From the NCBI GenBank assembly GCA_023142995.1, contig JAGLIM010000053.1:1-33723 (forward strand): 33,723 nt of DNA, written 5' to 3'. The DNA is from Minisyncoccota bacterium. Lineage in GTDB: Bacteria; Patescibacteriota; Minisyncoccia; JAHIHE01; JAGLIN01. The notes below the pieces were generated by a model. It saw only the letters and a list, made by a program, of their open reading frames with translations, did not search any database and was not told the origin of the DNA. Both the position numbers and the translations under genes were made by a program. This document shows, in pieces, positions 5,431 to 28,042 of the stretch (positions are counted from its first letter, which is position 1; each line of letters opens with the position of its first letter).

Positions 5431-5453
5431 ACCCTATCTCCCTTATTTTTTTG
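5416..5453 (+). terminator. Rho-independent terminator overlapping the stop codon
   Basis: GGAGATAAGG...CCCTATCTCC followed by TTATTTTTTT. Confidence 0.75.
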
Positions 5454-5720
5454 TCTAAATTATAATATCCTCTGCGGGAACTGGTTTTTAACCAGTTTCA
5501 AAATGTTTACCACTTACACAAAATACTGTTCGACCTTGCTCTGAACTCCGCGCAAATAACTTCTCCATAAAGTCGAAGAATATTAGAGTTTCATTAAATA
5601 ACAATATTGTTCGACTTTATGGAGAACTCCGCACGAATAACTTCTCCATAAAGTCGAAGAATATTAGAAATATTGCTGTAAGATAAATATTGTTCGACTT
5701 TATGGAGAACTATAGCGCAT
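5453..5720. repeat. Direct-repeat block copy 1 (3' flank), containing hairpin units
   Basis: tataatatcctctgcgggaactggtttttaaccagtttcaaaatgtttaccac... is nearly repeated at 6996-7165. Confidence 0.9.
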
Positions 5721-5742
5721 TTTATTTCAGAGCAAGGTCGAA
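5529..5742. repeat. Nested inverted-repeat element (MITE/REP-like)
   Basis: 17-bp outer inverted repeats TTCGACCTTGCTCTGAA (5529-5545) / TTCAGAGCAAGGTCGAA (5726-5742) around two TTCTCCATAAAGTCGAAGAATATT...AATATTGTTCGACTTTATGGAGAA hairpins. Confidence 0.85.
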
Positions 5743-5830
5743 AAATATTGTAGATTATGGAGAACTCTATTGTGTAACTTCTTAATACACTATACTTGTC
5801 TGTCTAAAACTGACAAAACTAATCCAACTC

Positions 5831-6013: not shown

Positions 6014-6937
6014 ATGAATGGAAACGGACAAATAGTAATTCCAGAAACAGATATTCTGGAACTAGTAGAATCGCTTATGAACAAGCAAGATTTGCCAACA
6101 AATCAGACAATGACAAGTCTTGGAGATGGGAAACCTCTCCTAATGGGATGTATCCCGTCAAAGAGAAAAGCCAAATGGGCTCTTAAGCACAATGGAACAA
6201 CGCTTTTAAAAACCCCTCAGCAAGTAGTTGAGGAATTCAGAAAAAAGCTCAAGGAGATGAAGTCTCCTGGTATTACCATCGTTGGTAAAAATGGGGAAGT
6301 GGAACAGAAGGTAGAACAGAGAAAGGTTTTTCCCGAAAAGAGACATCCTGTTCTGAAAGCTCCAGAGCACAAGAGCTCCAGGCCTCCGATGGTTTGGACA
6401 AAACCAGAAGGAGATCAGAGCGGCTTGATGTGGGTAGTCTTCAAAAGGAAAATCCTCTCAAATAGAGAAGAGATTATTTCTGCCGAAGCAAGATGCAACG
6501 GCAAAAAAGTATGGGTAAAACCAAAGGTTCCTCTGGAAAAAGAGGGTTTGGGATACCTAAGACCTATTCGGATTCCCTGGTGGGAAATCGCTGAATTCGA
6601 CAATGTCTTTATTGTCGAATTACCAGACTTCTCTGAAAAGAGAGTTCAGATGGGAGATAAGAAGGTTATAGTGATCGAATCTTCGGTCTACTTCAGTCAA
6701 GATATTCTCCAGAAGAAAGGACCCTTTGCTGTATTGTTTAAAGAAGACCTTGTCCTTATTCATATCGACAAGAGACTCAAAGAAGTCTACCATGCTCTGA
6801 ACACAAAACAGAAAGAAGAGAATGGGGTTGGCGACCAATGGACCATTCTCAGAAATGGACTGTTAAGAAGCCCGGAGAAAAGTCGGATTTCCGACGAAAC
6901 TGTTCTCGAAGTACTAAAAACAGTACTGGAGAAATGA
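6014..6937 (+). CDS. Hypothetical protein, no recognised family (about 307 aa)
   Basis: Long ORF with promoter, AAGGAG SD about 11 nt upstream, and its own terminator. Confidence 0.75.
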   Translation: MNGNGQIVIPETDILELVESLMNKQDLPTNQTMTSLGDGKPLLMGCIPSKRKAKWALKHNGTTLLKTPQQVVEEFRKKLKEMKSPGITIVGKNGEVEQKVEQRKVFPEKRHPVLKAPEHKSSRPPMVWTKPEGDQSGLMWVVFKRKILSNREEIISAEARCNGKKVWVKPKVPLEKEGLGYLRPIRIPWWEIAEFDNVFIVELPDFSEKRVQMGDKKVIVIESSVYFSQDILQKKGPFAVLFKEDLVLIHIDKRLKEVYHALNTKQKEENGVGDQWTILRNGLLRSPEKSRISDETVLEVLKTVLEK

Positions 6938-6951
6938 AAATAAATAAGTGA

Positions 6952-6988
6952 AGAGGACTTTGATTTGCAAAGCCCTCCTATTTTTTTA
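6952..6988 (+). terminator. Rho-independent terminator
   Basis: GAGGACTTTG-ATTTG-CAAAGCCCTC then TATTTTTTT. Confidence 0.75.
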
Positions 6989-6995
6989 CTCTTAG

Positions 6996-7165
6996 TTATA
7001 ATATCCTTTACGGGAACTGGTTTTTAACCAGTTTCAAAATGTTTACCACCTACACAAAATACTGTTCGACCTTGTGGAGAACTCCGCACAAATAGCTTCT
7101 CCATAAAGTCGAAGAATATTAGAAATATTGCTGTAAGATAAATATTGTTCGACCTTGTAAAAAAC
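6996..7165. repeat. Direct-repeat block copy 2 (one hairpin unit)
   Basis: Near-identical to block 1 minus one ~80-bp hairpin unit. Confidence 0.9.
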
Positions 7166-9703: not shown

Positions 9704-10306
9704 ATGAGAAAGATAATTCTTGCTTCAGGTTCAGAAAATAAAAGAAAGTTGATCAAATCAATCGGCTTGAATTTCTCAATCGAAAAAAGCAAATATAAAG
9801 AAGATATGTCAGAAAAGTTACCCGCGATCAAACTTGCAAAAAAGCTTGCTCTTGGTAAAGCGCAAGATGTTGCCAAGAAACACAAAAATGCGATTATCAT
9901 TGGAGTAGACACTTTTGGAATAATTGACAACAAATTCATCGGACAAGCAAAGTCGCCAAAAGAAGCAAAAAAGATACTGAAACTACTTAGTGACAGAAAA
10001 CATAAGATCATTACTGGAATCGCCATTATTGATACTCAAAAAAATAAGATCATTTCCGACTATGATATTTCACAAGTATGGATTAAGAAACTTTCCACAA
10101 AAGAGATTGACAGTTATATCAAAACCAAAGAACCTATGTTCAAAGCATCTGCCTATGCGATCCAGAAATTAGGATCAGTTTTTATTGAAAAGATCAATGG
10201 AAATCATATGGGAATTATTGGATTACCAATTGGAAAAATATATAAACATCTTTTAGAACTTGACGTTAATATTCTTGAAAAACCTTACTACAACGACCAC
10301 TCTTGA
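9704..10306 (+). CDS. maf: Maf-like nucleotide pyrophosphatase
   Basis: IILASGSENKRKLIKSIGL; IIGVDTF; internal spacing typical of Maf. Confidence 0.78.
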   Translation: MRKIILASGSENKRKLIKSIGLNFSIEKSKYKEDMSEKLPAIKLAKKLALGKAQDVAKKHKNAIIIGVDTFGIIDNKFIGQAKSPKEAKKILKLLSDRKHKIITGIAIIDTQKNKIISDYDISQVWIKKLSTKEIDSYIKTKEPMFKASAYAIQKLGSVFIEKINGNHMGIIGLPIGKIYKHLLELDVNILEKPYYNDHS

Positions 10307-10346
10307 TGTTTTTTATAATTTATTATATACTCTTATAGTAATAAAG

Positions 10347-10420
10347 GCGCTCGTAGCTCAATTGGATAGAGCACTTGGCTTCGGACCAAGGGGTTGTGGG
10401 TTCGATTCCTGCCGAGCGCA
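10347..10420 (+). tRNA. tRNA-Arg (TCG)
   Basis: Acceptor GCGCTCG/CGAGCGC-A; anticodon loop CTTCGGA; T-loop TTCGATT. Confidence 0.93.
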
Positions 10421-10427
10421 CAAGAAT

Positions 10428-10494
10428 TGTATAACGCAAAACGTATAACGTGTAATTTATCATACGTTATACGTTATACGTTTTGCGTTATACA
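10428..10494. repeat. 23-bp perfect inverted repeat between tRNAs
   Basis: TGTATAACGCAAAACGTATAACG ... CGTTATACGTTTTGCGTTATACA. Confidence 0.95.
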
Positions 10495-10498
10495 CTAT

Positions 10499-10571
10499 GG
10501 GTCGTTAGCTCAATTGGTAGAGCAGTTGCCTCTTAAGCAATTGGTTAGAGGTTCAAGTCCTCTACGACCCA
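10499..10571 (+). tRNA. tRNA-Lys (CTT)
   Basis: Acceptor GGGTCGT/ACGACCC-A; anticodon loop CTCTTAA; T-loop TTCAAGT. Confidence 0.93.
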
Positions 10572-10574
10572 CAG

Positions 10575-10640
10575 AAAACATATTAACATACTAACAATTT
10601 AACAATTTTTAATCTTGTTAAAATGTTAATATGTTTAAAT
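10575..10640. repeat. Inverted repeat between tRNA-Lys and tRNA-His
   Basis: AACATATTAACAT ... ATGTTAATATGTT. Confidence 0.85.
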
Positions 10641-10654
10641 GTTAAAATAAATAT

Positions 10655-10726
10655 GGTGGCTATGGTGTAATGGTAACACTAGAGGTTGTGGTCCTCTCGT
10701 CTCGGGTTCAATTCCCGATAGCCACC
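10655..10726 (+). tRNA. tRNA-His (GTG)
   Basis: G-1:C73 pair, GTGGCTA/TAGCCAC acceptor, anticodon loop TTGTGGT. Confidence 0.93.
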
Positions 10727-10736
10727 CAAATCTAAA

Positions 10737-10766
10737 ATAACCGCTAATGTTAGCGGTTTTCTTATT
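10737..10766 (+). terminator. Terminator of the tRNA cluster
   Basis: AACCGCTAAtgTTAGCGGTTTTCTT. Confidence 0.8.
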
Positions 10767-10790
10767 ATTAAATCGTAAACCACACCCCTT

Positions 10791-10819
10791 GACAAGTCGC
10801 TTATCTTATGCTATACTCT
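10791..10819 (+). promoter_or_regulatory. Promoter TTGACA-N17-TATACT
   Basis: cTTGACAagtcgcttatcttatgcTATACT upstream of the 10969 ORF. Confidence 0.65.
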
Positions 10820-10887
10820 ATAGTTCTAGTAATAATAAACTTTACAAAAAAATACACTTACCACAAAGAATTTGTTATTATAAGAAC

Positions 10888-10921
10888 CTGTTGGTTTAAA
10901 TAAAAATAATTAAACAAACAG
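10888..10921 (+). promoter_or_regulatory. Leader hairpin
   Basis: CTGTTGGTTTA...TAAACAAACAG, one mismatch. Confidence 0.5.
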
Positions 10922-10968
10922 AATTTCTATAATTACATAATACCGAAAAAAATCAGGAGAGATTGCAA

Positions 10969-11124
10969 ATGGAAAATGAATTAGAGAAGAAAATGGAAAA
11001 AGATGTAGATTGGTTTGCTGTCGTAGTTAAGGTACTACGACTTAGAAATGAAGAAAATTATGGCAAAAGAGATATTGCCAATTACTTAGAAGATCATATT
11101 GGGGATTTTGTCAAAAAGACATAA
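10969..11124 (+). CDS. Small hypothetical protein (51 aa)
   Basis: AGGAGAGATTGCAAATG start; MENELEKKMEKDVDWFAVVVKVLRLRNEENYGKRDIANYLEDHIGDFVKKT*; promoter and terminator present. Confidence 0.6.
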   Translation: MENELEKKMEKDVDWFAVVVKVLRLRNEENYGKRDIANYLEDHIGDFVKKT

Positions 11125-11137
11125 TTCCGTACATTAC

Positions 11138-11177
11138 AACGAGTGAGATGTGCTTGCATGTCTCCCGTTTTTTTTTA
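11138..11177 (+). terminator. Rho-independent terminator
   Basis: AACGAGTGAGATG-TGCTTG-CATGTCTCCCGTT then T8. Confidence 0.7.
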
Positions 11178-11314
11178 CTTAAATATATGCTTATTCAATT
11201 CATTATAACTAAGTGAAATTGAACTCATTATACAAAACAAGCTTTCTCTTTACTTGTAAAACAATATCACTACTTCAAATCAACGATACAAAAACTCTCA
11301 TTCAAAACCAATCT

Positions 11315-11388
11315 CACAAATTTAGTTCTAACGTTCTCAGCTACGCCACCCAAATCAAAAAATTCATCTGAGAATTAGTCAGATGAGT
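11315..11388. repeat. Array repeat copy A with adjacent hairpin
   Basis: cacaaatttagttctaacgttctcagctacgccacccaaatc followed by TCATCTGA-N7-TCAGATGA. Confidence 0.85.
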
Positions 11389-11392
11389 TATA

Positions 11393-11680
11393 TTATACTT
11401 CTATTAACTGTTTCATAAGAGAATCTAGTTGTCGCGAAACAAGACTATCATAATTTGCTTCACTATCCCTTATCTCTAATAAAATATTGCCTATACGTTC
11501 TTTCGAAATTATATTCTTCTCGAATAAATCATATGTCTCTTCTATCTTTATACATAAGTCAGAACACTTAGAAAGATTAAAATTACCACTGTTTGCTATC
11601 TTTGCTTTCTCAAGTAGATCAGAAATCATCGATTCTGCTAATGCTTTATTAATATCTGTTCCTTCTTCTAAAACTTTCAT
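11393..11680 (-). CDS. Hypothetical protein (95 aa)
   Basis: AAGGAG SD 9 nt upstream of ATG; minus-strand TTGACA-N17-TATATA upstream. Confidence 0.6.
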   Translation of the reverse strand: MKVLEEGTDINKALAESMISDLLEKAKIANSGNFNLSKCSDLCIKIEETYDLFEKNIISKERIGNILLEIRDSEANYDSLVSRQLDSLMKQLIEV

Positions 11681-11782
11681 CTTTCATCACTCCTTTATTC
11701 TATTTTTTTGTACAATATTCATTGACCAATTACTTTGGCATTATTTACCTTATATATATCATCACATTATAAAACTGTCAAG

Positions 11783-11940
11783 AAAAAGATGTTTGATGAA
11801 AATTTAGTAGATCTAAACTTTTTATTTTAAGTTCGGTATATGAACATCTTTATCTAAAGCTAATTCTACAAATTTAGTTCTAACGTTCTCCGCTACGCCA
11901 CCCAGCTCAATTTAACCGCTAATATTGGCTGTTTTTTTAT
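11783..11940. repeat. Array repeat copy B
   Basis: agatgtttgatgaaaatttagtagatctaaac...ctacaaatttagttctaacgttctccgctacgccacccagctc + degenerate hairpin. Confidence 0.85.
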
Positions 11941-12155
11941 GCTCATTTATAAAGTTAGAAATCTTTAATGTATTTGAGAAAGAAAATAACAGATATTGAT
12001 CCATTGTTTTTTATGATATTGAGTTTATCTAGATGATTTATGTCTACAGTAATAAAAAGCTATATTTACTGATACTGATATAAAAAAAGGAAGAAAAATC
12101 TTCAACATAATAGCTAAAAATTTAACTTCCATTTTGAGATTTTGAATTTTTAAAT

Positions 12156-12347
12156 CTAAGACACGATTGTCACTCCACTAAATTCTTTATATCTTTCAAC
12201 TTTCTCACCCTCTCGCCATCCAACGGTTCTAGTTCCCTGATTATAATTTAATTTTATATCTTTTAGCTTTATCTCTTTGCCACATCTCAAGCTTGCCGCT
12301 TCAGCAATTAACCTCTTAGTCTCTTCTAAATCAAATTCATCGCACAT
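12156..12347 (-). CDS. Hypothetical protein (63 aa)
   Basis: GAGGTGA SD before ATG; located between array repeats. Confidence 0.5.
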   Translation of the reverse strand: MCDEFDLEETKRLIAEAASLRCGKEIKLKDIKLNYNQGTRTVGWREGEKVERYKEFSGVTIVS

Positions 12348-12391
12348 GACGATTCACCTCACATATCTCTTTTAACATTTATTTAAATTCC

Positions 12392-12442
12392 TGTCAAAAC
12401 AGAATACTTACAGAATACTTACAGAATACAGACAGAATACAG
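12392..12442 (-). promoter_or_regulatory. Period-11 direct repeats abutting a TTGACA element
   Basis: Minus strand: (TATTCTGtaag/tctg) x4 at 11-bp spacing ending next to TTGACA (12392-12397). Confidence 0.6.
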
Positions 12443-12592
12443 GAAAAGATGTTTGATAAAAATTTAGTAGATTTAAACTTCTTCTAAATCAGGAATAAAT
12501 AAACCCTTATTTAAAGCTAATCTCACAAATTTAGTTCTAACGTTCTCCACTACGCCACCCAAACCTAAAATAATCACTAATACTAGTGATTA
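12443..12592. repeat. Array repeat copy C
   Basis: agatgtttgataaaaatttagtagatttaaac...cacaaatttagttctaacgttctccactacgccacccaaacctaaaat + AATCACTA-ATAC-TAGTGATT. Confidence 0.88.
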
Positions 12593-12888
12593 TTTTTGTA
12601 TCTCAATCATATGCTATAACTCTATAAAAGATTCTCAGCTACTAGACCATTGTTGACTTGCATAGTTACATAATACATAATATGAATAATAAGATATAGG
12701 AGATTAATAAATAATCATTTCACTAATATCATTTTTCAAAAAGGCGAACAGATTTTTATAAAGAGCATGGGTAATAAATGGCTTAGATCGATAATTATTA
12801 CACTGAACGGAAATTACTGATAAAATATGGAAAATACTTTGCCAATTTTAATTCATTTAGAAAAATTCTAACAAATTATTGTCATAAT

Positions 12889-13329
12889 ATGATATCTATC
12901 AATCCTATTGAAAATTTCAATAAAAAGTTTGAAGTAGTATCCTTATTTACTATTTATAATGGAAAAATATTATTACTCAAAAGACAAGAAAATAAACCTC
13001 AAGAAAAAACATGGGGACCTCCAGCAGGGAAAGTAGATGATGGCGAAAATCTTGAGCAGGCAATTTGTAGAGAAACTTTTGAGGAGACAAGTATAAAAAT
13101 AGAAACAGATCAAATAACCAAATATAAAAAGTGCTACTATGTAAGACACGACGATATAGATTTTGTGTTTTATGTTTATGCAATAAAACTGAATAAAAAG
13201 CCAGAAATAATACTAAGACCCGTTGAACATTCAGAACATTCTTGGTTTACACCACAAGAAGCATTGAGAATTGATCTAGTACAAAATGAAGAAACTCCTA
13301 TTACTGATTTCTTTTTTAAGAACAAATAA
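12889..13329 (+). CDS. NUDIX hydrolase
   Basis: GKVDDGENLEQAICRETFEETSI Nudix box. Confidence 0.9.
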   Translation: MISINPIENFNKKFEVVSLFTIYNGKILLLKRQENKPQEKTWGPPAGKVDDGENLEQAICRETFEETSIKIETDQITKYKKCYYVRHDDIDFVFYVYAIKLNKKPEIILRPVEHSEHSWFTPQEALRIDLVQNEETPITDFFFKNK

Positions 13330-13378
13330 ATAATATTTTATTATGAAAAATATAAACAGCAACCAGAACCATTCAATA

Positions 13379-13402
13379 TAACGTTCTCTACGAAGCCACC
13401 CA
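13379..13402. repeat. Partial array repeat copy E
   Basis: taacgttctctacgaagccacccagc. Confidence 0.6.
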
Positions 13403-13543
13403 GCGCTTTTTTAATGCTTTTTTCAGTTTTTCAAAATCGCTTTTAGTTCCATTAAATTCCCAATCAACAGTTTTTGTAAGCATATTGCAAAAATCGTGAT
13501 ATACCTTTTTTGTTTTTATTAATTTAGTTCTAACGTCATCCAC
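13388..13543 (-). CDS. Small ORF sharing a VRTK N-terminus with the array repeats (51 aa, GTG start)
   Basis: MDDVRTKLIKTKKVYHDFCNMLTKTVDWEFNGTKSDFEKLKKALKKRWVAS*; repeat copy D at its start. Confidence 0.35.
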   Translation of the reverse strand: MDDVRTKLIKTKKVYHDFCNMLTKTVDWEFNGTKSDFEKLKKALKKRWVAS

Positions 13544-13585
13544 TAACCTTGGTCTAAAACAATCGCTAATCAGCGATTGTTTTTA
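13521..13585. repeat. Array repeat copy D plus terminator-like hairpin
   Basis: aatttagttctaacgtcatccactaacc...CAATCGCT-AATC-AGCGATTGTTTTTA. Confidence 0.7.
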
Positions 13586-13613
13586 TAATACACATAATAA
13601 AAAGAGGAGTCTT

Positions 13614-13937
13614 TCAACTTCCTCTCGTTCTTCCCATAGACATTTGTGCCTCTGCTTCAGAGATAATGTCTTCATTCTTGAGATTTGTTCTGAACTCTTC
13701 GATTCTATCAAGAGTTTCCTGATCCTTTAAGTCAGAAAGATAGCAAAAAGCATAGAATCTATCAGATGGATCCTCGCTTTCTAATAGATTTCTTAAGAAA
13801 TCTTTTGCCTCTTCTGCTGCTTCTGCATTAACTTCTAAGGAAACTTCTCCTATTTTATTAAGAACAAAACACCTTGGACACGCTTGATTTTTAAGTGCCT
13901 TGAAAAGCTCTTCTAAACTCGATCCTTCTTGTGTAAT
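13614..13937 (-). CDS. Hypothetical protein (107 aa), apparent ATT start codon; absent from the ORF track
   Basis: AGGAGG-N8-ATT; in-frame TAG two codons upstream of ATT; no in-frame ATG/GTG/TTG until the C-terminus; ITQEGSSLEELFKALKNQACPRCFVLNKIGEVSLEVNAEAAEEAKDFL... Confidence 0.7.
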   Translation of the reverse strand: MTQEGSSLEELFKALKNQACPRCFVLNKIGEVSLEVNAEAAEEAKDFLRNLLESEDPSDRFYAFCYLSDLKDQETLDRIEEFRTNLKNEDIISEAEAQMSMGRTRGS

Positions 13938-14005
13938 TTTCTATTCCTCCTATAGTTTAGTAAAAAACTTCTGAAATACGTTTACCAGAAATCATTACTA
14001 TACAA

Positions 14006-14033
14006 AGTATATATAAATGATCATAAGTGTCAA
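14006..14033 (-). promoter_or_regulatory. Promoter TTGACA-N16-TATACT for the 13614-13937 gene
   Basis: Minus strand hexamers at 14028-14033 and 14006-14011. Confidence 0.6.
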
Positions 14034-14046
14034 TCTTAATAAAAAT

Positions 14047-14077
14047 AAAAAAAAGTCCCAAAATGAATTGGGATAAA
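14047..14077 (-). terminator. Terminator downstream of purB
   Basis: Minus strand TCCCAATTCATTTTGGGACTTTTTTTT. Confidence 0.75.
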
Positions 14078-14088
14078 ATCTTTGATAT

Positions 14089-15525
14089 TTATGTTGATTT
14101 ATTTCTTTTTACAAAATCATTTGCTCTTTTGACAACCTCCATTGCCTTTATTTCGGATTTACCTGTATATTTATATGGGTTTTGAAGAAGATCAAACATC
14201 TCCTTGGGTATTTGTGAGATAACTTCTTTTATATCCTGATCTTTGAGTGAGAGTTTAACTAACTCCTCGATCAATGATCTGCCTAACGTTTGAACATTCG
14301 GAACCAATGTGTGATTCACAAGTTCGTGCGCATCTCCTTTATATCCGCATAGTTGCAAGATAAGATACAATGGTTCAGCCATTATCAATTCTCTAGATTG
14401 ATCAAAGTTGCGCTTAAGAGATCTCTGGTCAATCGTAATTTTTGAAATAACTTTGCTTATACGATCAATTTGAGATTGAGCCATAATCACTATTGTTGGA
14501 AATTCCCTCATTACAGAACTGCCTACTAAATCTCTTTGATGCTCCGAAATCAAACAAGAAAGAACTTTTTGATATTCTGCTGATACGATCACAAATAGTC
14601 CTTCTGTATTCTCAAACGCAATAGGATTCCTCTTATGAGCCATGGTGGAAGATCCAACTTGAGCTGAACCAAAACTTTCAGCCACTTCCTTGATCTCTGT
14701 TCTTTGCAAGTGACGAGAGTCTCTTGATAGCTGCGCAAGAGAGCTGGATAGAAGAATATGCTCATGTAAAAACCTTGTCAAAGGATTCGGTGGAAGTATC
14801 TGGGTAGAAATTCTGCTTGGTTTTAGATCAAGTTTTGATAACACAAGTTCTTCAAAAGTAATATCGAAAAGTTCTTGCGACCTCTCATCAAGCCCTAAAG
14901 CAACTTGAGCATTATAGGCTCCTACAGCACCACTGAATTTTCCGACAAGCTTACTTTCTACTTCCTTAAGTTCCTCGGCTGAATCTATAAATCTATTCAA
15001 AAGTGTCGCAAGCCAAAAGCCAACAGTGATCGGTAAGGCATGCTGTCCGTGAGTTCTACCGATTTGAACAACAGACATAAATTCTTCTGTCTTCTTGCTC
15101 AGATTTTCTATCAAATCAACAAGAGTAGGAAGAGTCACTACTCTGAATGCTCTTTTATAGGCAATAATTCTAGCATTTTCAATTATATCGTAGCTTGTTG
15201 CACTATAATGAACCCATTTTCTTAAAGGTTCTGGCATAAGTTCCTGCATTAGTTGTACTAATGCTCTGATATCATGTTTCGTTACTTCCCGTTCCCTCTT
15301 ATCTTGCAGTGTTGTCGTTATTTCATTAAGCAAACAATGCTTCAGCTTTCCATCCAGTAGAAACACGTCTTTTGAAGGAATTGCTTTAATATCTGCAAGA
15401 GATTTAAGTAAAGCCCATTCAACTTCAATTTGAAATCCAGCAAGATAATCATATCCAAAATATGGAATTAATGATTTTGGCTGATATCGAGGATTTCCAG
15501 GCATTTCAAGCCTCAATTCTAACAA
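14089..15525 (-). CDS. purB: Adenylosuccinate lyase
   Basis: GSSTMAHKRNP signature of the fumarase/aspartase superfamily; TSYDIIENARI, GRTHGQHALP. Confidence 0.92.
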   Translation of the reverse strand: MLELRLEMPGNPRYQPKSLIPYFGYDYLAGFQIEVEWALLKSLADIKAIPSKDVFLLDGKLKHCLLNEITTTLQDKREREVTKHDIRALVQLMQELMPEPLRKWVHYSATSYDIIENARIIAYKRAFRVVTLPTLVDLIENLSKKTEEFMSVVQIGRTHGQHALPITVGFWLATLLNRFIDSAEELKEVESKLVGKFSGAVGAYNAQVALGLDERSQELFDITFEELVLSKLDLKPSRISTQILPPNPLTRFLHEHILLSSSLAQLSRDSRHLQRTEIKEVAESFGSAQVGSSTMAHKRNPIAFENTEGLFVIVSAEYQKVLSCLISEHQRDLVGSSVMREFPTIVIMAQSQIDRISKVISKITIDQRSLKRNFDQSRELIMAEPLYLILQLCGYKGDAHELVNHTLVPNVQTLGRSLIEELVKLSLKDQDIKEVISQIPKEMFDLLQNPYKYTGKSEIKAMEVVKRANDFVKRNKST

Positions 15526-15753
15526 TAGTTACCATCTCCTTTCTATGTTGTGTAAAGAACATTATCATTCTGATAATCCTCCTTCGTTAGAATACTAACA
15601 AAAAATTTATTTTTGTCAATTTATAGCTCTTTAGAATTTTCACCTTGACAAACCTTCATATTAGTGTACACTGAATAGTTCTCTAATAGCCTATCCACGA
15701 GATCAATTGAACACTAGACATTTCAAATTAATTTGTTAATTTCATTTAAAGTA

Positions 15754-15789
15754 AAATTTAATCATTTTTATCAAAAAATGATTAAATTT
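15754..15789 (+). promoter_or_regulatory. Leader hairpin (15-bp perfect stem)
   Basis: AAATTTAATCATTTT-TATCAA-AAAATGATTAAATTT. Confidence 0.6.
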
Positions 15790-15851
15790 CGCTTTAAGCG
15801 AATGAATGAATAAAAATAATATTAATGTGGCAAACAAATAGGAGGAAAAAA

Positions 15852-16232
15852 ATGAGATTCAAAATGTTGAAACCATACGACTTGGAAAAAAAGGAAGAGG
15901 AAGAGGAAGCTGTCAAAATTCAAGAGAGAGAAAAGGTAATAGAAGATTTCACTGATGAAATCTTAGTCGAGGAAGAATTCAATTTGTTTCTTGATATAAA
16001 CAGAACAACCCTCTTGATTGAAGGTGAAAAAGTTTCAAAAACAATTTCTTTTGACCTAGATGAGTCTAAGACTAGAGAAATTGGGATTACCGACATTTGT
16101 CGGCAAATCGAAATCCTCTTGGATGAAAATGAATATTGCGCAGAAATAAGTCCAGCTGAGTCAACAATAGGACTTGAGATCTGGATCAGCTCGCAATATT
16201 TCAGAGAGCAAGAAGACTTTGAATGTAAATGA
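15852..16232 (+). CDS. Hypothetical protein (126 aa), acidic N-terminus
   Basis: AGGAGG SD before ATG; TTGACA promoter about 195 nt upstream. Confidence 0.65.
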   Translation: MRFKMLKPYDLEKKEEEEEAVKIQEREKVIEDFTDEILVEEEFNLFLDINRTTLLIEGEKVSKTISFDLDESKTREIGITDICRQIEILLDENEYCAEISPAESTIGLEIWISSQYFREQEDFECK

Positions 16233-16344
16233 TCTTCTAAGCGGTGCGATCATATCAAACCGTTTTTTTTATTTCTTATCTTATTTTTTTTATAAAAAAA
16301 TAGCCCCGCAGAAATCTTCCGCAAGGCAAACCTTTATAATTTAT

Positions 16345-19300
16345 TTATTTATTTTCCTCCTGCTGTATGCACCAACTGTACGCATTCTGAAACATCTTAA
16401 GCCACGGACTTGCTTCCAAATCTTTCCATTCTTCTGGGATCCATGGAAGTTGCCAAAGTAAGAACGATCGTTCTGAATGTGGCATCATAGCAAGATGTCT
16501 TCCATTCTCAGAGCAAAGACCGGCTATACCGAAAGGACTGCCGTTCGGATTAAATGGATAAACCTCTGTAGGTTTTCCACTAATATCAACAAATGCTATT
16601 GGTACCAATTTCTTTTCTACAATCTCATGTAACATTTGTTTATCTGGAACAAAAAGTCGTCCTTGAGCATGTGCTGACCACACGCCAATTCTAGAACCTT
16701 CCATTCCCTTAAACATTATCGCTGGACTTGGTTGAATTTCCACAGTTGGAAATCTTGATTCAAAACGACCAGAGTTATTGCTTATAAATCTTGGCTGTTT
16801 CTCATCAGATATTCGGGACCAAGGAACCCATCCTAAAAGCGCCATTAGCTGACAACCATTGCATACTCCGAAAGAAAAAGTATCAGAGCGAGCATAGAAG
16901 TTGTCAAACTGTTCTTTGACTTCTGGGTTGAATTTTATTACACCGGCCCATCCTTTTCCTGCGTCTAAGACATCACCAAAGGTAAAACCTCCGACAAAGG
17001 CTATTCCTTTGAATTGATCAAGGGTAATATTACCTTTGATTATATCAGTCATAGTTGCATCCCAAGGATCAAATCCCGCAAGATAAAATGCTGAAGTCAT
17101 TTCTTTATCACCGTTACTTCCTCTTTCTCTTATAATAGCAATTTTTGGTTTATTGCTAGAATTAAGAATACTAGAAGGCTCAAAAGTCAGTCTATATGGT
17201 GGGTCTTTTATCAACTCTGCATTAACTTGCGCTTCTTCCTCCACACATTCTGGATTAGCTTGAAGCTTATCGATTTCTGTACTTGTTGCCTCCCAGATCT
17301 GTCGCAAAGCTGTCATCTCTTCATCTAAAACCAATATATTATTATGTTCTATTTTTATTTTACCTCCACGATTTCCTACTGCTCCAATTTCTTCAACTGG
17401 TACTCCAAAATCTGTGAGCAGTTTCAAAACCTCTTCTGGCTTATCAGTTTCCATAACAAGACCAAGTTCTTCGTTGAAAAGTGTTTCTATAGTTTTGGCA
17501 TTGCTCTCTATTGAAATATCTAAACCGACATTGCCAGCAAAAGCCATTTCTAAAAGCGTTACAACAAGACCGCCATCGCTTCTATCATGAATTGAGCAAA
17601 TAAGATCTCTATCAATTAACATTTGCACCGCTTCAAAAGAGCGTTTGAATAGACTTGCACTTTCCATATCAGGACAATCATCCCCAATTTGGCTATGAAC
17701 TTGAGCAAGTGTTGAACCGCCAAGACGGTTTTTGCCATTCGACGGATTTATAAATAACAAAACGTTTCCTGACTTTTTAAGATCAGGGGTAACTTTATTA
17801 GTTATATCATCCATTGGGGCCATAGCCGAAATTATCAATTGTCCAGGTGCCTTAACGATATGAGTTTCGTTATCAGGACCAGTAGCTTCAAGCGCCATTG
17901 AAAGACTATCTTTTCCGCCTATAATGGCAATACCTAACTCAAGCAAAATATCTCGCAAAGCGCAAACAGCATCATAGAGCCAAGCTCCTTCTCCAGGAAG
18001 TTTCGCTGCCAACATCCAGTTAGCCAAGAGCTTTACATCTTCAAGTTTAGTTATTTTGGCACCAATTATATTAAATAAAGCTTCCGAAACAGCCATATGT
18101 GCCATTGCCCAAGGAGAGACCAAACCTTTTAGAGGCTGTTCTCCCAGACTTAAAGCTGTTCCTGTTAAACCAAAATGACTTTGCGCCATAATAGCATAGT
18201 TAGACAGAGTCAACTGATTTGGTCCTACACATTGTTGTTGAGAAACTAAGCCTGTCACACTACGATCTCCTTTTATAATTAGATGTCTCTTAGATCCAAT
18301 AGAACGCAAAACCATATCTAGCGCTTCAAAAACAGTTAAGTCTTTTGGTAGAAGTAAAGGTTCTAGTATCGGATCAAGATGCTCCATCTCAAAGGTTTTT
18401 GGTTTGACTTTTTCAAGAATCTTATCCAAAGGCAGATCAACAGGACAAGAATTGTCATTCTCGTCATACAAAACGATCTTTCCATCACCAGTGATCTCAC
18501 CAATAACCGCGAAAGGAATATCTTCTCGCTCGCAAATTTGTTGAATTAGATCTAATTTTTCTGGTCGGATTAAGAGAGCATTTCGTTCTTGAGATTCGTT
18601 ACACCAATATTCTAAAACGGATAAACTCTTATCTCCTAACGGAATAGCACGAAGGTCAATTCTTGCGCCAGCAGGATGAATAAGCTCTGATACGGCATTG
18701 CAATCACCACCAGCTCCAAGATCTTGCATTAAGACAATTGGATTTTTGTTGCCGAGCTCTGTGCATGCTCGTATCAATCTGTTCATCCGCTGTTCCATTT
18801 CTGGATCTCCGCGTTGAACCGCACTAAAGTCCAATTCTGTATCATCTTCTTGGCTTTGGATCTTTGAACTACCAGATGCTCCTCCTAAACCAATACGATA
18901 AGCTGGTCCGCCAACTTGTATAAGAAGCATACCTTTTTGAGCAGTTCCTTTCTTTATGTGATCGTTCTCTACTTGTCCGGTACCTACCGTATAAAGGATA
19001 GGTTTGAAAAATGAATGATATTCTCCATCTGGAAGTAGCAAACCAGTCATTCTGGTAGCACCATAGATAAGCGGTTCACCAATACAATTATGATAATCGC
19101 TTGCTCCGTCGCTTGCCTTGATCATAATTTTTAAAGGCAATGTAAGAAGATCTTTGGCAATCCAATCATTTTGTTCCCAAGGAAGAATGTATCCAGGAAT
19201 ATGGAGATTACCAGTAAAATAACCAGCTCCTCCTACTCCAAAGCGTCCTCCTCTTCCTGCTCCGACTTGATTATCACGAATCCTTCCTCCAGGTCCAGTC

Positions 19301-22031: not shown

Positions 22032-22172
22032 AGAACTACTAGAGCTAGTATATAGTAGCAAAAAAGAAACATTATTAATAAAAGCTGATAATATATCTTT
22101 TTTACTACTTTTTTATTTTGATAAATTCCATTCACATTCAAATATAAAACGATAAAGATCTCTGCGGGATTG

Positions 22173-22263: not shown

Positions 22264-23439
22264 ATGTATGGAAGAACGTCATGGCTACCACCAGGTGGCA
22301 CAAACCTTTTTCAGGATATAAAAGATGAAATTGCCCTGGCAAAAAGAAGAATTATAGATATGTCTATAGGAGAACCTTCTCTTCCTCCGCTAGAAATAGC
22401 CAGGATAACAGCAGCACGAGAACTTTTAAGTTCAGATGTGAAAACACACGGATATCAAGACAACAAAACTCCAGCTCTTCTTAACTTTGCAGAACTTTTT
22501 GCTCTGTTCCATATGGACCCTCAGCTTGAAGGAAGATCAGACGTAAAGTTCCTAGGAACACCTGGCACAAAATCAATGCTCGGCGTAATAATACGCGCTT
22601 GTGGAGAAGAACTGAAGTTGGTTGGAACTCATACAAATCCCGGCTATCCAACACCAGCAGTTCAATGTGGTTATCAGGGTATACAACATTATGCTTTAAA
22701 GACCAACCCTGAGAATGACTTCCGCTTTAGCGTGGCAGACATCAAAGAAGGTACCGAGCTTTTAATGCTCAACTACCCTCACAATCCTTCGGGACAAGTG
22801 GCCACCAAAGAATTTTGGGAAGAGATCTGCGCTTATTGCGAGAAAAATGGAATCCGTCTGGTCAATGATGCTGCCTACACTGGTCTTGTTCATTATAGTA
22901 AAGACCACTGCACCTTAGCAGATGTTGCTGTCAACTATCCAAACCTTTCATGGGTAGAGCTCTACACAGCCTCCAAATTGATCAATGTAACAGGATGGAG
23001 AATTGGAGCAATGGTAGGATCACCTGATTTTATTGATGATATTGCAACCATAAAAGGCAACACAGACAGCGGACTCAGCGCCCCACTGGCAGCAGGAGTA
23101 TTAGATGCCGTGAAATATGACCAAACAGGGATAGCTACAAACAAAAATTTATACAGAGTGAGACTTCAATTTCTCATTAGAATTCTTGAAAATCAAGGCA
23201 TGCAACTTGCTGTTCGTCCCAGCGCAGGATTTTTCACTTTATGGAAAGTTCCTAAGATGGCTTTTGGGAAAACTATCACAAGAGCAGAAGAGTTTAATGA
23301 CCGAATGATCAGATTAGGTATTGTAGGTGTACCTTTTGATGGAGATGACAGCTACATAAGATACGCAGTTGTCAATGACATCATACCATTAGAAAATGAC
23401 ATTATTTCTGCTTTTGAAAAAGCAAAAGTGTCATATTAA
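22264..23439 (+). CDS. Pyridoxal-phosphate class I/II aminotransferase (LL-DAP/aspartate aminotransferase-like)
   Basis: LNYPHNPSGQVA, VNDAAYTGL, YTASKLINVTGWRIG PLP-lysine region. Confidence 0.88.
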   Translation: MYGRTSWLPPGGTNLFQDIKDEIALAKRRIIDMSIGEPSLPPLEIARITAARELLSSDVKTHGYQDNKTPALLNFAELFALFHMDPQLEGRSDVKFLGTPGTKSMLGVIIRACGEELKLVGTHTNPGYPTPAVQCGYQGIQHYALKTNPENDFRFSVADIKEGTELLMLNYPHNPSGQVATKEFWEEICAYCEKNGIRLVNDAAYTGLVHYSKDHCTLADVAVNYPNLSWVELYTASKLINVTGWRIGAMVGSPDFIDDIATIKGNTDSGLSAPLAAGVLDAVKYDQTGIATNKNLYRVRLQFLIRILENQGMQLAVRPSAGFFTLWKVPKMAFGKTITRAEEFNDRMIRLGIVGVPFDGDDSYIRYAVVNDIIPLENDIISAFEKAKVSY

Positions 23440-23498
23440 AGACAAACATAACGAATTTTCTTCCGAATCCCACAAAGGTTCGGAATTTTTTTTATAAA
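23391..23498. repeat. Direct repeat copy 1: aminotransferase 3' end plus terminator
   Basis: agaaaatgacattatttctgcttttgaaaaagcaaaagtgtcatattaaagacaaacataacgaattttcttccgaatcccacaaaggttcggaatttttttt. Confidence 0.95.
23462..23494 (+). terminator. Rho-independent terminator
   Basis: TTCCGAATCC-CACAAA-GGTTCGGAA-T8. Confidence 0.9.
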
Positions 23499-23580
23499 CT
23501 TCTTCGTGTAAAAATATTGCTATTACAACTGCTAGTAGAAAATAAAGCAGAACAAAGTCATTTTTAATAAACCCTTTATC

Positions 23581-23644
23581 ACAATTGAAAAACAATTAAA
23601 AAACAATTGAAAAACTTGACAATTTTTGATTTTTATTATATGTT
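23581..23644 (+). promoter_or_regulatory. Period-11 repeats + promoter TTGACA-N17-TATGTT
   Basis: ACAATTGAAAA ACAATTAAAAA ACAATTGAAAA ac TTGACA. Confidence 0.6.
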
Positions 23645-23729
23645 ACTTTTGGATTATAAAATACGAATTTTTGTTTTATTATCATGACTTAAAGATATTA
23701 AAATAAAATTGTTCTTTATTACAAAATTT

Positions 23730-23791
23730 ATCTAAGGTGACTTTTGTTTGATATTATCCAAAACAAATATTTAGCAAAAATCACCTTAGAT
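23730..23791 (+). promoter_or_regulatory. Leader hairpin upstream of the cytochrome gene
   Basis: ATCTAAGGTGA ... TCACCTTAGAT (11-bp perfect outer stem). Confidence 0.7.
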
Positions 23792-23837
23792 ATGAATGAA
23801 GCTATGGATAAAGCTAGGTGAACAGGAGGAACACAAA

Positions 23838-24965
23838 ATGAAAAGAATAGCGATATGGGCAAGTCTTGTAGTTCTATTTATGATAGGACTTGGATCCCCT
23901 TGTATAGCAGACAGTGTTGGTGGTTGTACAGGCTGCCACCAAGAGATTGTCGATAACTTCGAAACATCCCTGCACTATACGGCGTCAGGAATGTACGATG
24001 GATATCAAGATGGTGCTGCCGGATATTTCGGCATTGACATGGATGAATATTACGAAGAATTCAATTGTGCTAAATGCCACGTTACAACATGCACAACGTG
24101 TCATATAGGATACTCGGCTACGTACGGGCATAAACACCAAGGCAATCAGATAAACATAAGTATTGATACCTGTGATCCGTGTCATGGGAAAAAACAGACA
24201 TCCACTTTTATGGGTGAGATGCCTATGCATAAGAGTAAAGGTCCGAGTGCAGACATTCACTACGAGGCCGGAATGATTTGCACTGACTGTCATGAGCCAG
24301 AGGACATGCACGGAACTGGTGTAAAATATGACAAACAACTCGAAGCAATCTCAGTAGAATGCGGAGACTGCCACAACAATCCCGAAAAAACTGTGAATGA
24401 GATAGAGGTAACACAGTACTCGTCTGAATCTTATTCACACGAAATACACGGAGATAACTTGAGTTGTATAACTTGTCATTCAAGTTGGGTGTTAAATTGC
24501 CAGAATTGTCATCTCAAAGATCGAAAAGGGATGACAGTAACTCCAGATACGTTTTTCCTTGCGAAAGATGAAGAAGGACAGATAACGACCTTCTTCAAAA
24601 TGGAGACTAAGTATCAAGACGAAAGTCATATTGAGACTGAGTATCGAAGAGACGAAATTCATACCGTTTTCGGAGAGTGGTATGGCCACACGGCGACTAA
24701 CGAACCCAAGAAGTGCAACGTCTGCCATGAAAACGCAGAAGAGGTATTCCTCGCAAGATACACTGTCGGAGAAAATGTTCAGATCTGCGGATCATTCGTG
24801 GACAATAAAACAATTGAGCGTGTGATCAATGCCGAAATTGTCCAACCGCCAGAAGAAACTCCAGATAGTACAGATGATACGACAACAGATGAAACACCTG
24901 GTTTCAAAGCAGTCTTTGTCATTGCTGGACTGCTTGCGATTGCATATATAAGACGCCGTGAATGA
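23838..24965 (+). CDS. Secreted nine-heme c-type cytochrome with PGF-CTERM-like C-terminus
   Basis: Nine CxxCH motifs (CTGCH, CAKCH, CTTCH, CDPCH, CTDCH, CGDCH, CITCH, CQNCH, CNVCH); signal peptide; Thr/Asp/Glu/Pro-rich linker then TPGFKAVFVIAGLLAIAYIRRRE; AGGAGGA SD. Confidence 0.93.
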   Translation: MKRIAIWASLVVLFMIGLGSPCIADSVGGCTGCHQEIVDNFETSLHYTASGMYDGYQDGAAGYFGIDMDEYYEEFNCAKCHVTTCTTCHIGYSATYGHKHQGNQINISIDTCDPCHGKKQTSTFMGEMPMHKSKGPSADIHYEAGMICTDCHEPEDMHGTGVKYDKQLEAISVECGDCHNNPEKTVNEIEVTQYSSESYSHEIHGDNLSCITCHSSWVLNCQNCHLKDRKGMTVTPDTFFLAKDEEGQITTFFKMETKYQDESHIETEYRRDEIHTVFGEWYGHTATNEPKKCNVCHENAEEVFLARYTVGENVQICGSFVDNKTIERVINAEIVQPPEETPDSTDDTTTDETPGFKAVFVIAGLLAIAYIRRRE

Positions 24966-24967
24966 AT

Positions 24968-25072
24968 AGAAAATGACACCGTTTCTGCTTTAAAAAAAGC
25001 AAAAGTGTCATAAAGACAAATATAACGAATTTTCTTCCGAATCCCACAAAGGTTCGGAATTTTTTTTATAAA
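24968..25072. repeat. Direct repeat copy 2: vestigial aminotransferase 3' end plus terminator
   Basis: agaaaatgacaccgtttctgctttaaaaaaagcaaaagtgtcataaagacaaatataacgaattttcttccgaatcccacaaaggttcggaatttttttt, starting 2 nt after the cytochrome stop. Confidence 0.95.
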
Positions 25073-25105
25073 ATTAGAACTTTTTTACAAACAACCCTAA
25101 ATATC

Positions 25106-25155
25106 AAAAGCGTAGTGTATTTTGCAACGGCCGTTGCAAAACACACTACGCTTTT
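25106..25155. repeat. 50-bp near-perfect palindrome without loop
   Basis: AAAAGCGTAGTGTATTTTGCAACGG|CCGTTGCAAAACACACTACGCTTTT, one mismatch. Confidence 0.95.
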
Positions 25156-25271
25156 ATTTCTTCTGTTAAAAGTTCTAAAACCTGATTTCGGGTTTTACCC
25201 ATTAAATTATATACAATCCTATATTACAAGTTGATGATGAGTTGATAAATGATTTTTACCTAAAAACTGAG

Positions 25272-25312
25272 AGTATAACTTTTCTCACGGCCATGAGAAA
25301 AACGTTATAGTT
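25272..25312. repeat. Second GGCC-centred imperfect palindrome
   Basis: GTATAACTTTTCTCACGG|CCATGAGAAAAACGTTATAG. Confidence 0.75.
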
Positions 25313-25386
25313 GGTTTGTTTAAATATTACAGATATTATTTATAAATAAAAAAAGAGGACAGATAATATTGAATATTCCTGCCATT

Positions 25387-25833
25387 TTATATATTAATGA
25401 AATCCTGATCAGACTCTCTTTCAATTGCTTCATTTGTAATATCTAACAAAGAAGCATAATTGACATAGAAACGAACTAATGTTTCTGTTGTTTCATCTTT
25501 TTCGCTAGAGACTATAAAACCTTCAATGAATCTTCCAATATCTTTTAATATATTGTAAAAGACACCAAAACCATCTTTACATGGAAATCCAGGACTTTCT
25601 GGACCGAAGTTTGATTCTAAGTTACGCATATAGTCTCTTAGAAAACAAAACACTGCAAACATTTCTTGCTCATCTTTCATTTTTTTAGACATTTCAAGAA
25701 GTTCAAAATCTCCAACGATCTTCTTTAAATCGCAAAATGCCTCTGTTGCAGCATCTCCTCCTTCTTCCATTCGCGCAGAAATTGATCTTAATTCATTTTT
25801 TAATTCATTTATTCTTGCTTCTGATATAAGCAA
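25387..25833 (-). CDS. Hypothetical helical protein; start TTG 25833 or ATA 25827
   Basis: AGGAGG sits 2 nt before TTG but 8 nt before in-frame ATA; TTGACA-N16-TAGTAT promoter on the minus strand. Confidence 0.65.
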   Translation of the reverse strand: MLISEARINELKNELRSISARMEEGGDAATEAFCDLKKIVGDFELLEMSKKMKDEQEMFAVFCFLRDYMRNLESNFGPESPGFPCKDGFGVFYNILKDIGRFIEGFIVSSEKDETTETLVRFYVNYASLLDITNEAIERESDQDFINI

Positions 25834-25948
25834 TCCCTCCTGATCTTAAAAGTACTTTAATACTAACAAAATCTTTAAGAATGTCAACATTTATAGCCAA
25901 ATTCAATTATTAGTATCTTTACGATATTTTTTTTACAAAAAATAAAAT

Positions 25949-25976
25949 AAATCCGCTAGATGCTTCTAGCGGATAT
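25949..25976. terminator. Terminator downstream of the CoaD-CoaE gene
   Basis: ATCCGCTAGA-TGCT-TCTAGCGGAT. Confidence 0.75.
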
Positions 25977-25990
25977 TTTCGTTCAATTAA

Positions 25991-27202
25991 TTATTTATTC
26001 TCTCTTATAATTTTAAACCTCCTTTTATATTCCTTTTGAAGTTTTTCATAAACTTCTCCTGTATTCGTTTCTTTCGATCCGTCAATTTTGATAAACAGAC
26101 GGTCAAACTCTTCTCGCTGCCTTGCGATAATCTCTTCAGTTCTCTCCTTGTTACCAAACTGAAATTCAAATCTTCTTTCTATTTGTTTCTTGTTAAGACC
26201 TCTTTTTGCCATTCGTTTTTTCTGGATCTCTTTATCAACTTGAACAAGAACAATGTTCTCATTAACAAGATGAGTCATCTCACCTTCAATAAGGTTAGCT
26301 CCTTCAATCAGAAAGATTCCTTTACCAAGTTCATCCAGCCTTTTTCTGAGAAGATGAAGAATCGGATCCAACACTATTCCTACCAGCTTATCAAGCTTTC
26401 TCTTTGAGGAAAAAGCAATGTTTCCCAATTTATGCGTATCAATACTCGTATTCTCTCTTAAAAGTTTACCTCCAAATTCTCTGTTAATCTGTTTTCTAAT
26501 AGCCAAAAATCTTGGAGTGGGATCATTGCTATAAACAACTTTTCCCAATTCATCAAGACTGATATGATATATTGACATATCTTCAGTTCCACCATTTTCT
26601 TCTGAGAGCCCTTGGATATCTTCAGCGAACGTTGTTTTACCAGAAGCGATTCCTCCAGTAACCCCAATTATCAGCTGATTCTTCATCCTTATCTGAAGAG
26701 CCTCTCTTGTTAATGCTGGAGCAAAATCTTTAGCATCAATACCTAAATCGATAAAGCTCTTTAAATTGCTTGAAGAAACTTTTAGTAATGCTGGATCGGT
26801 CTGTGGAATAATAAGAGTTGTCAGACTACCAGAAAGTTTAGAATTCACTTCAGCTATCCATCTCTCAGACTTAAAGTCTTCTGAGTCCCGTGCTCCTTTC
26901 ACAAACATATTGATATTCTGTTCATAAAACAAATTTGCAATGATTCCTGAATACGGAATTACCTTCACTCTGTCTTTATATTCAACAGGTATTGTTCGTT
27001 CAATTAAAAATACTTTTTCTTCTGTTGAAAAAGTGCTTTTATCTTCTTTTTCTTCATTAACTCCGATCACAATATACAATATTGCTTTTGAATGAATCTC
27101 AAGAAAAGAGATTACGGCTGATAAGTGCCCATCGTGAAATGGATCAAAGCTACCGGGAAAACCGGCAATAAGTTGTTCTTGAATTTCTTTCATTTCTTTC
27201 AC
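25991..27202 (-). CDS. Fused pantetheine-phosphate adenylyltransferase (CoaD-like) / dephospho-CoA kinase (CoaE)
   Basis: GSFDPFHDGHL nucleotidyltransferase motif, then IGVTGGIASGKTTFAED P-loop. Confidence 0.82.
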   Translation of the reverse strand: MKEMKEIQEQLIAGFPGSFDPFHDGHLSAVISFLEIHSKAILYIVIGVNEEKEDKSTFSTEEKVFLIERTIPVEYKDRVKVIPYSGIIANLFYEQNINMFVKGARDSEDFKSERWIAEVNSKLSGSLTTLIIPQTDPALLKVSSSNLKSFIDLGIDAKDFAPALTREALQIRMKNQLIIGVTGGIASGKTTFAEDIQGLSEENGGTEDMSIYHISLDELGKVVYSNDPTPRFLAIRKQINREFGGKLLRENTSIDTHKLGNIAFSSKRKLDKLVGIVLDPILHLLRKRLDELGKGIFLIEGANLIEGEMTHLVNENIVLVQVDKEIQKKRMAKRGLNKKQIERRFEFQFGNKERTEEIIARQREEFDRLFIKIDGSKETNTGEVYEKLQKEYKRRFKIIRENK

Positions 27203-27208
27203 CTCTTT

Positions 27209-28012
27209 TTATATAATTACATTATTCAACTCGCTTGCGATACAAATGGGAGAATTTGTTTCTTTTATTCTTTGAAGAATGTTCTCTTCAAGAGTAATTG
27301 GGATATGATTAAGATACAATCTCTTTTGAATCTCAACTGGCAAAGTCAAAAGCTCATTAAAATGAGTATGCGATTGACTGCCAACGGCATAAGACCCTGC
27401 TTCATGAATTATAGGATACTCTCCTTTTTTTGCAAGAAATTCTATTAGCTCTAAATCAAAACTTGTATCTCCAGAATAAGCAAGAACAGGAACACCATTT
27501 CTCAAAATGCAAAATGCAATTGAAAGAAAAGGCGCATGTTTTGTGCTTCTCTTGAAAGTTTCAATTTCAATTCCCAATTCTTCTATCTTAGTCGTCTTGC
27601 CAAGTTCCAATTCAATTAATTTTACATAATCCTCCAATTGTCTTTTCGTTTTCATATCTATTCTATCTGTCTCAAATGCTGTTCTGACCCTCTGCCACAA
27701 CTGTTTGGCAATCTCTGGATGGGTTATCAGAAGAAGCTTTGAATTTTCTCCAAAAACCTTATGCCAGATAAGAGAATCAAATCCCGCAATATGATCAGCA
27801 TCAACATGTGTTATTATCAAAGCATCAACATGTGTAAGTTCACTTTCCGATCTCAATGTTTTCATTCTCGGCAAAGTTGCTGTTATGTGCGCGGGAGCTT
27901 CTATCACGATAGTTTTTCCATTAACCTCTAAAACGGTCAGATTCTCCAGACCGCCAGAACCTACCGAAAACATATCATGATATCCAAATGTCCGTATCGT
28001 TATTCCTTTCAT
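27209..28012 (-). CDS. MBL-fold metallohydrolase
   Basis: ITHVDADHIAGFDSL (HxDxDH-type motif), AYSGDTSFD. Confidence 0.85.
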   Translation of the reverse strand: MKGITIRTFGYHDMFSVGSGGLENLTVLEVNGKTIVIEAPAHITATLPRMKTLRSESELTHVDALIITHVDADHIAGFDSLIWHKVFGENSKLLLITHPEIAKQLWQRVRTAFETDRIDMKTKRQLEDYVKLIELELGKTTKIEELGIEIETFKRSTKHAPFLSIAFCILRNGVPVLAYSGDTSFDLELIEFLAKKGEYPIIHEAGSYAVGSQSHTHFNELLTLPVEIQKRLYLNHIPITLEENILQRIKETNSPICIASELNNVII

Positions 28013-28042
28013 TTTGTGTTCCTCCTATTGCTATAAATAAGT

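Follow-up and report, generated by a model that had tools for sequence, protein, structure and literature searches.

The window analysed here, a stretch of 33,723 nt from the genome of a Minisyncoccota bacterium (G000; 1.48 Mb, 96% complete), carries an aminotransferase gene followed on the same strand by an ORF for a nonaheme c-type cytochrome, and the 3' end of the aminotransferase gene with its intrinsic terminator is present twice, once in its own place (copy 1) and once behind the cytochrome ORF (copy 2). To the right lie a long palindrome, a 148-aa ORF, a fused CoaD-CoaE gene and a gene for a protein with a metallo-beta-lactamase fold (MBL), the start of which recurs at the start of the cytochrome ORF (Table 1). 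Pfam identifies bacterial genes among the ORFs of the window, including those for ClpC, RecX, VanW and an L,D-transpeptidase; like those of Patescibacteria, the genomes that were sampled from the host phylum are small (about 0.5-1.5 Mb). Counts for codon usage and local repeats refer to 409 kb of host sequence, that is the window and about 375 kb taken in stretches.

Table 1. Features at and around the cytochrome gene, with positions in the window
Feature	Position	Strand	Remarks
PLP-dependent aminotransferase (class I/II)	22264..23439	+	PF00155, E 3e-30
Copy 1: last codons and stop of the aminotransferase, intrinsic terminator	23390..23498	+	stem 23461-23485
5' region of the cytochrome gene	23499..23837	+	GC 24%, like other host intergenic DNA
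Predicted sigma-70-like promoter, TTGACA-17-TATGTT	23616-23644	+	resembles promoter of another host gene (G000:C34)
Hairpin leader, 27 bp	23729-23792	+	strong hairpin, z -4.6
RBS and first ~8 codons of the cytochrome	23821..23862	+	partner at 27988-28029, minus strand; 36/42 nt identical
Nonaheme c-type cytochrome, 375 aa, 9 CxxCH	23838..24965	+	PF14522, PF14537 and PF18204 above cut-off
Copy 2: relic of the aminotransferase 3' end, terminator	24967..25072	+	stem 25035-25059
50-nt palindrome downstream of copy 2	25106..25155	.	one further copy, G000:C17 ~22040-22098
148-aa ORF	25387..25833	-	no Pfam or PHROG match; missing at the syntenic place in G001, where homology is back at ~25877
Fused CoaD-CoaE (phosphopantetheine adenylyltransferase and dephospho-CoA kinase)	25991-27202		also in G001 and G015
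MBL-fold gene	27209..28012	-	PF12706, 41.7 bits; owner of the copied RBS and start; G001 ortholog with similar RBS

The recurrence of the aminotransferase end, which had been noticed in a previous sequence-only reading of this DNA, is real. The two copies align over 109 nt with 91.7% identity (6 substitutions and one 3-nt gap), and their match scores 148 bits, whereas the best match in 300 shuffled windows (10 Mb) scored 32.5 bits. The copies lie where that reading had placed them, with starts set here at 23390 and 24967, and it was right that copy 2 begins 2 nt past the cytochrome stop and can be read in frame as an aminotransferase-like end, ENDTVSALKKAKVS followed by a stop. It was also right that one gene lies between the copies; however, the region between them measures 1468 nt (23499-24966), and the length of about 1.57 kb that had been assigned to it corresponds to the start-to-start spacing of 1574-1577 nt. 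All differences fall within the first ~57 nt, which comprise the coding relic and the first bases past the stop, and there is none in the final 52 nt, where the terminator lies; by its position, copy 2 would supply the terminator of the cytochrome gene. No third copy was found in the 1.48-Mb genome. With two matches only, the repeat is not a generic terminator standing behind several genes, a case that the sequence-only reading had named as one that would speak against its interpretation.

Homologues of the aminotransferase are present in 4 of the 14 other genomes of the family, in differing neighbourhoods and with 57% identity for two of them. The sequence-only reading had proposed a search for alleles in which the aminotransferase and terminator occur without the cytochrome, and the relative G004 has one, with a single closely similar terminator (CCGAATC..GGTTCGGAATTTTTTT); it does not represent a strict empty site because its other neighbours differ. 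Measured against the outgroups G004 and G002, copy 2 retains an AAA (Lys) codon and the G of a GTT that are both lost in copy 1, while the TAT codon before the stop is retained in copy 1 and lost in copy 2. As copy 2 keeps bases that are gone from copy 1, it was not newly copied from the aminotransferase gene in its present form, and it may go back to an old duplication, to a sister allele or to a former second aminotransferase.

The cytochrome ORF is intact and encodes a hydrophobic, signal-peptide-like segment at its N terminus and a PGF-CTERM motif at its C terminus, the only such motif in the genome. With 9 CxxCH motifs and this N-terminal signal, the predicted product falls among the multiheme c-type cytochromes, taken as exported proteins with at least two CxxCH motifs. 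The tail, which fits the scheme of a PGF motif, a hydrophobic helix and a basic end, scores 27.3 bits with PF18204 (cut-off 18.8), but 21.6 bits with the NCBIfam PGF-CTERM model, slightly below the cut-off of 24.5 of that model. When the host genes in the 409 kb that are 450 nt or longer (262) are ranked by how atypical their codon usage is, the cytochrome gene comes first, and its GC3 is 0.388 compared with a host median of 0.225. No homologues were found in 380 other genomes of the host phylum, in phages, plasmids, viral contigs or the PDB, or, apart from a contig discussed below, in 157 other genomes of the Aenigmatarchaeota, the archaeal phylum covered by the search. By composition and distribution, the cytochrome gene is thus foreign to the host, and a host gene end with terminator stands on both its flanks, as the sequence-only reading had proposed; the archaeal-type features of the protein and the MBL-derived sequence at its start had been missed. 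The PGF-CTERM tail and the composition, on which the assignment of a donor is based, would suggest an archaeon, and because no archaeal homologue was retrieved this donor is one that we infer. In neutral simulations, the frame stayed free of stops in ~3 to 36% of cases, provided that the divergence of copy 2 reflects neutral drift since insertion, and the intact frame is therefore weak evidence of selection. An AlphaFold run without an alignment gave a pLDDT of 38 and was not used.

Upstream of the cytochrome ORF lies a predicted promoter, in line with the earlier claim that the gene has a promoter of its own, followed by the hairpin leader. The latter was considered as a known riboswitch, a possibility we rejected since Rfam models matched tRNAs only in the window. 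Within 23729-23837, a possible leader ORF of nine codons (MNEAMDKAR) follows the hairpin and ends just before the cytochrome RBS.

The RBS and first codons of the cytochrome (AACAGGAGGAACACAAAATGAAAAGAATAGCGATATGGGCAA) pair with the start of the MBL gene (28012, minus strand), and of the 52,003 pairs that the gene starts in the 409 kb form, no other scores as high; the second highest has 31 identical nucleotides, and the cytochrome start reaches 27/42 with its second-best partner. The match has an E value of 7.5e-8 genome-wide, no other gene start is comparable, and beyond the 42 nt the similarity of the flanks is at chance. There are 11 sites at which the MBL genes of the host and of its family member G001 differ and the cytochrome is identical to one or the other; at 10 of these it agrees with the host, which argues that the copy was made in the lineage of the host. 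The G001 ortholog has a related RBS and start, so that the MBL gene is likely to be the original owner and source, and copying probably ran from the MBL gene to the cytochrome, with some room left for the reverse. The weight of this match is lowered by the shortness of the 42-nt patch and by functional constraint on its AGGAGG and ATGAAA portions. The patch is inverted relative to its source, which lies ~4.2 kb away.

Small multiheme cytochromes with PGF-CTERM tails have been described in ANME archaea (PMC9012536). The cytochrome described here resembles them in its size, its haem-binding motifs, its signal peptide and its C-terminal PGF-CTERM motif, and the same sequence occurs in a cold-seep assembly; in contrast to them, it is encoded on a bacterial chromosome with no detectable archaeosortase or CcmC/CcmF/CcsA genes, and no direct ANME homologue was retrieved. 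For haem attachment by systems I/II (CcmC, CcmF, CcsA), the 96% complete host genome gave no PF01578 match, a model that scored above its cut-off in 8 of 14 control genomes, and for an exosortase or archaeosortase it gave no PF09721 match. Lacking these genes, the host would have no known pathway for attaching the haems or for processing the tail. A properly matured and anchored cytochrome therefore seems unlikely in this host, although transcription and translation of the gene would be expected from its host-type signals. Either the gene was captured recently and does not serve its original function here, or its product acts unmatured or by a route other than those known.

Elsewhere in the 409 kb, several families of non-coding direct repeats of ~70-170 nt occur locally only, beside unrelated genes. 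Five copies lie at 11272-16740 of G000:C17 (L038), three at 9725-11870 of G000:C34 (L042), and three in the window (11269-11363, 11781-11904 and 12441-12574), the last with none elsewhere in the 409 kb. The aminotransferase repeat stands alone among the local repeats seen in that it begins within the 3' end of a coding region and has a clearly foreign gene between its copies. It is not a member of a dispersed repeat family since it matches itself only, unlike a palindromic, MITE-like intergenic repeat that has 49 copies in the 409 kb (TGTCATTCTGAACT..GTTCAGAATCT with an inner hairpin). The aminotransferase repeat is more in keeping with these short local duplications than with a dedicated insertion system.

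We consider it probable, if well short of certain, that an archaeal-type cytochrome ORF was captured into a bacterial chromosome and gained host expression signals through short local duplications. According to this model, foreign DNA with the cytochrome ORF would have been joined in beside the aminotransferase gene, possibly via natural transformation, as the host encodes ComEC. The RBS and first ~8 codons would have been copied from the MBL gene as an inverted duplication, and the 3' flank, that is the 14-codon aminotransferase relic and the terminator, from the gene directly upstream as a direct duplication. Both patches would probably have been made by template switching or illegitimate recombination while the foreign DNA was being joined. 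The outcome would be a single transcription unit with a host-type promoter, a hairpin leader, a host RBS, a foreign ORF and a host terminator, reached through an order of events that is, like the donor and any function of the cytochrome, unproven. A wider proposal can be put forward only tentatively and seems doubtful to us, namely that such domestication, in which short template-switch copies of neighbouring genes give a foreign ORF a host RBS with start codon and a host terminator, is one case of a general habit of this genome, whose local copying would supply expression signals to unrelated ORFs.

Templated insertions at break-repair junctions are short copies of nearby sequence, in direct or inverted orientation. 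Duplications linked to transformation are similar in that nearby sequence is copied at the junctions of foreign DNA; however, they span ~100-900 kb (PMC3784515), compared with 40-110 nt at the cytochrome locus. What sets the patches described here apart from both is that they sit precisely at the two ends of one ORF, which they provide with a terminator and with an RBS and its start codon.

Copy 2 might instead be the remnant of a tandem aminotransferase duplication, in which the cytochrome replaced the body of the second gene and left its 3' end. This would account for a gene end that is still in frame and carries its own terminator, and for the AAA (Lys) codon and the G of GTT that copy 2 shares with G004 and G002 while copy 1 has lost them, and local repeats are frequent in the host genome. 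However, 23499-23837 shows no remains of the 5' portion of a second aminotransferase gene and no relative seen has a tandem pair, and we regard this origin as unlikely. Rather improbable, too, is the import of a block from a sister strain, by which the cytochrome and a diverged aminotransferase end would have recombined in at the shared 3' end. Derived changes in both copies are what two diverged alleles would show, and homology at a single end would suit transformation in a host that encodes ComEC, but the proposal shifts the origin of the arrangement to a sister strain, none of which was found, and it is the MBL gene of the host's own lineage that the 5' patch matches.

The sequence-only reading had explained the repeat by insertion of a cassette with regeneration of the target, as at att sites. 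A mobile cassette would have entered site-specifically at the aminotransferase 3' end and restored the gene end, with the identical 52-nt terminator block as att core. Direct repeats at a gene 3' end that enclose a single gene are in keeping with this, as is the single terminator behind the aminotransferase gene of G004, and the arrangement recalls integrative elements that target and restore gene 3' ends. It differs from these elements in that the target is a protein-coding gene with its terminator, the 1.5-kb unit occurs once, and a patch is present at the 5' end too; as had been noted before, no integrase or transposase is evident nearby, Pfam giving no recombinase among the ORFs of the window. 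Integron cassettes, including those that cross domains (PMC9668308), likewise have one ORF between repeated sites, and a possible exchange between archaea and bacteria would be a further likeness, but the cytochrome gene has its own putative promoter, it does not stand in an array, and attC core sites (GTTRRRY / RYYYAAC) are absent from the repeat. Since, in addition, the repeat occurs only twice in the genome, the cytochrome has no homologues on phages, plasmids or viral contigs, and the MBL-derived patch is left unexplained, the cassette interpretation lacks support and we consider it very unlikely.

A contig of 4052 nt in the cold-seep MAG CSMAG_1834 (DAOWAL010000107.1, L005) spans 23230-27281 of the window with one difference, at 23472 (A/G), where the copy 1 terminator has its loop, and thus contains both repeat junctions around the cytochrome gene. 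The CSMAG catalogue was assembled from cold-seep sediments with MEGAHIT (PMC10491686). The contig is filed under Aenigmatarchaeota, in a bin that has a PF09721 match; as its bacterial-type genes are those of the window, we take it to be misbinned, probably through a binning error in the public record. The two assemblies could come from one sample, and their agreement is evidence against a random misjoin, yet one that is not fully independent. From 25877 onward, the right flank of the host contig is syntenic with G001 at 76-80% DNA identity. In G001, the gene that comes after coaDE encodes a DEAD-box helicase, with no 148-aa ORF, cytochrome or aminotransferase there, and this difference in gene order marks the region as a rearrangement point. 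An assembly chimera with the cytochrome of an archaeon from the same sediment, for which the metagenomic origin, the missing maturation genes and the archaeal bin could be cited, is most improbable given identical junctions in two assemblies, the syntenic right flank and host-derived sequence fused to both ends of the ORF, which would not be expected from a chance join.

Capture of the cytochrome ORF with local duplication of host signals, the reading we favour, is of interest because sequences seldom show how a gene that stems from another domain comes to be expressible in a bacterium. At this locus, the apparent expression pieces, an RBS with start codons and a terminator, can be traced to named neighbouring genes. 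An archaeal-type multiheme cytochrome in a lineage with no detectable maturation genes is relevant to the exchange of genes between archaea of methane seeps and very small bacteria, and the locus bears on whether a captured cytochrome is put to use or is a passing capture.

Some further observations concern repeats and palindromes in this and related genomes. Two copies of the MITE-like repeat (5444-5761 and 6979-7153) flank the gene at 6014-6937, which is the second most codon-atypical in the sample and has no Pfam or PHROG match. In G000:C34, the repeat copies at 9725-9884 and 10590-10749 (96%) each lie just 5' of a different start codon, which gives the impression of a duplicated promoter or leader. 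The palindrome downstream of copy 2 is likely to be the terminator of the convergent gene, and together with a second one at 25268-25318 it forms a pair (n=2) of near-perfect long palindromes with centres ACGGCC(G/A)T. In G004, a GC-rich palindrome (GTAGGGGCGTATCGCGATACGCCCCTAC; L008 ~1350-1390) lies inside the coding region of recG, at its 3' end.
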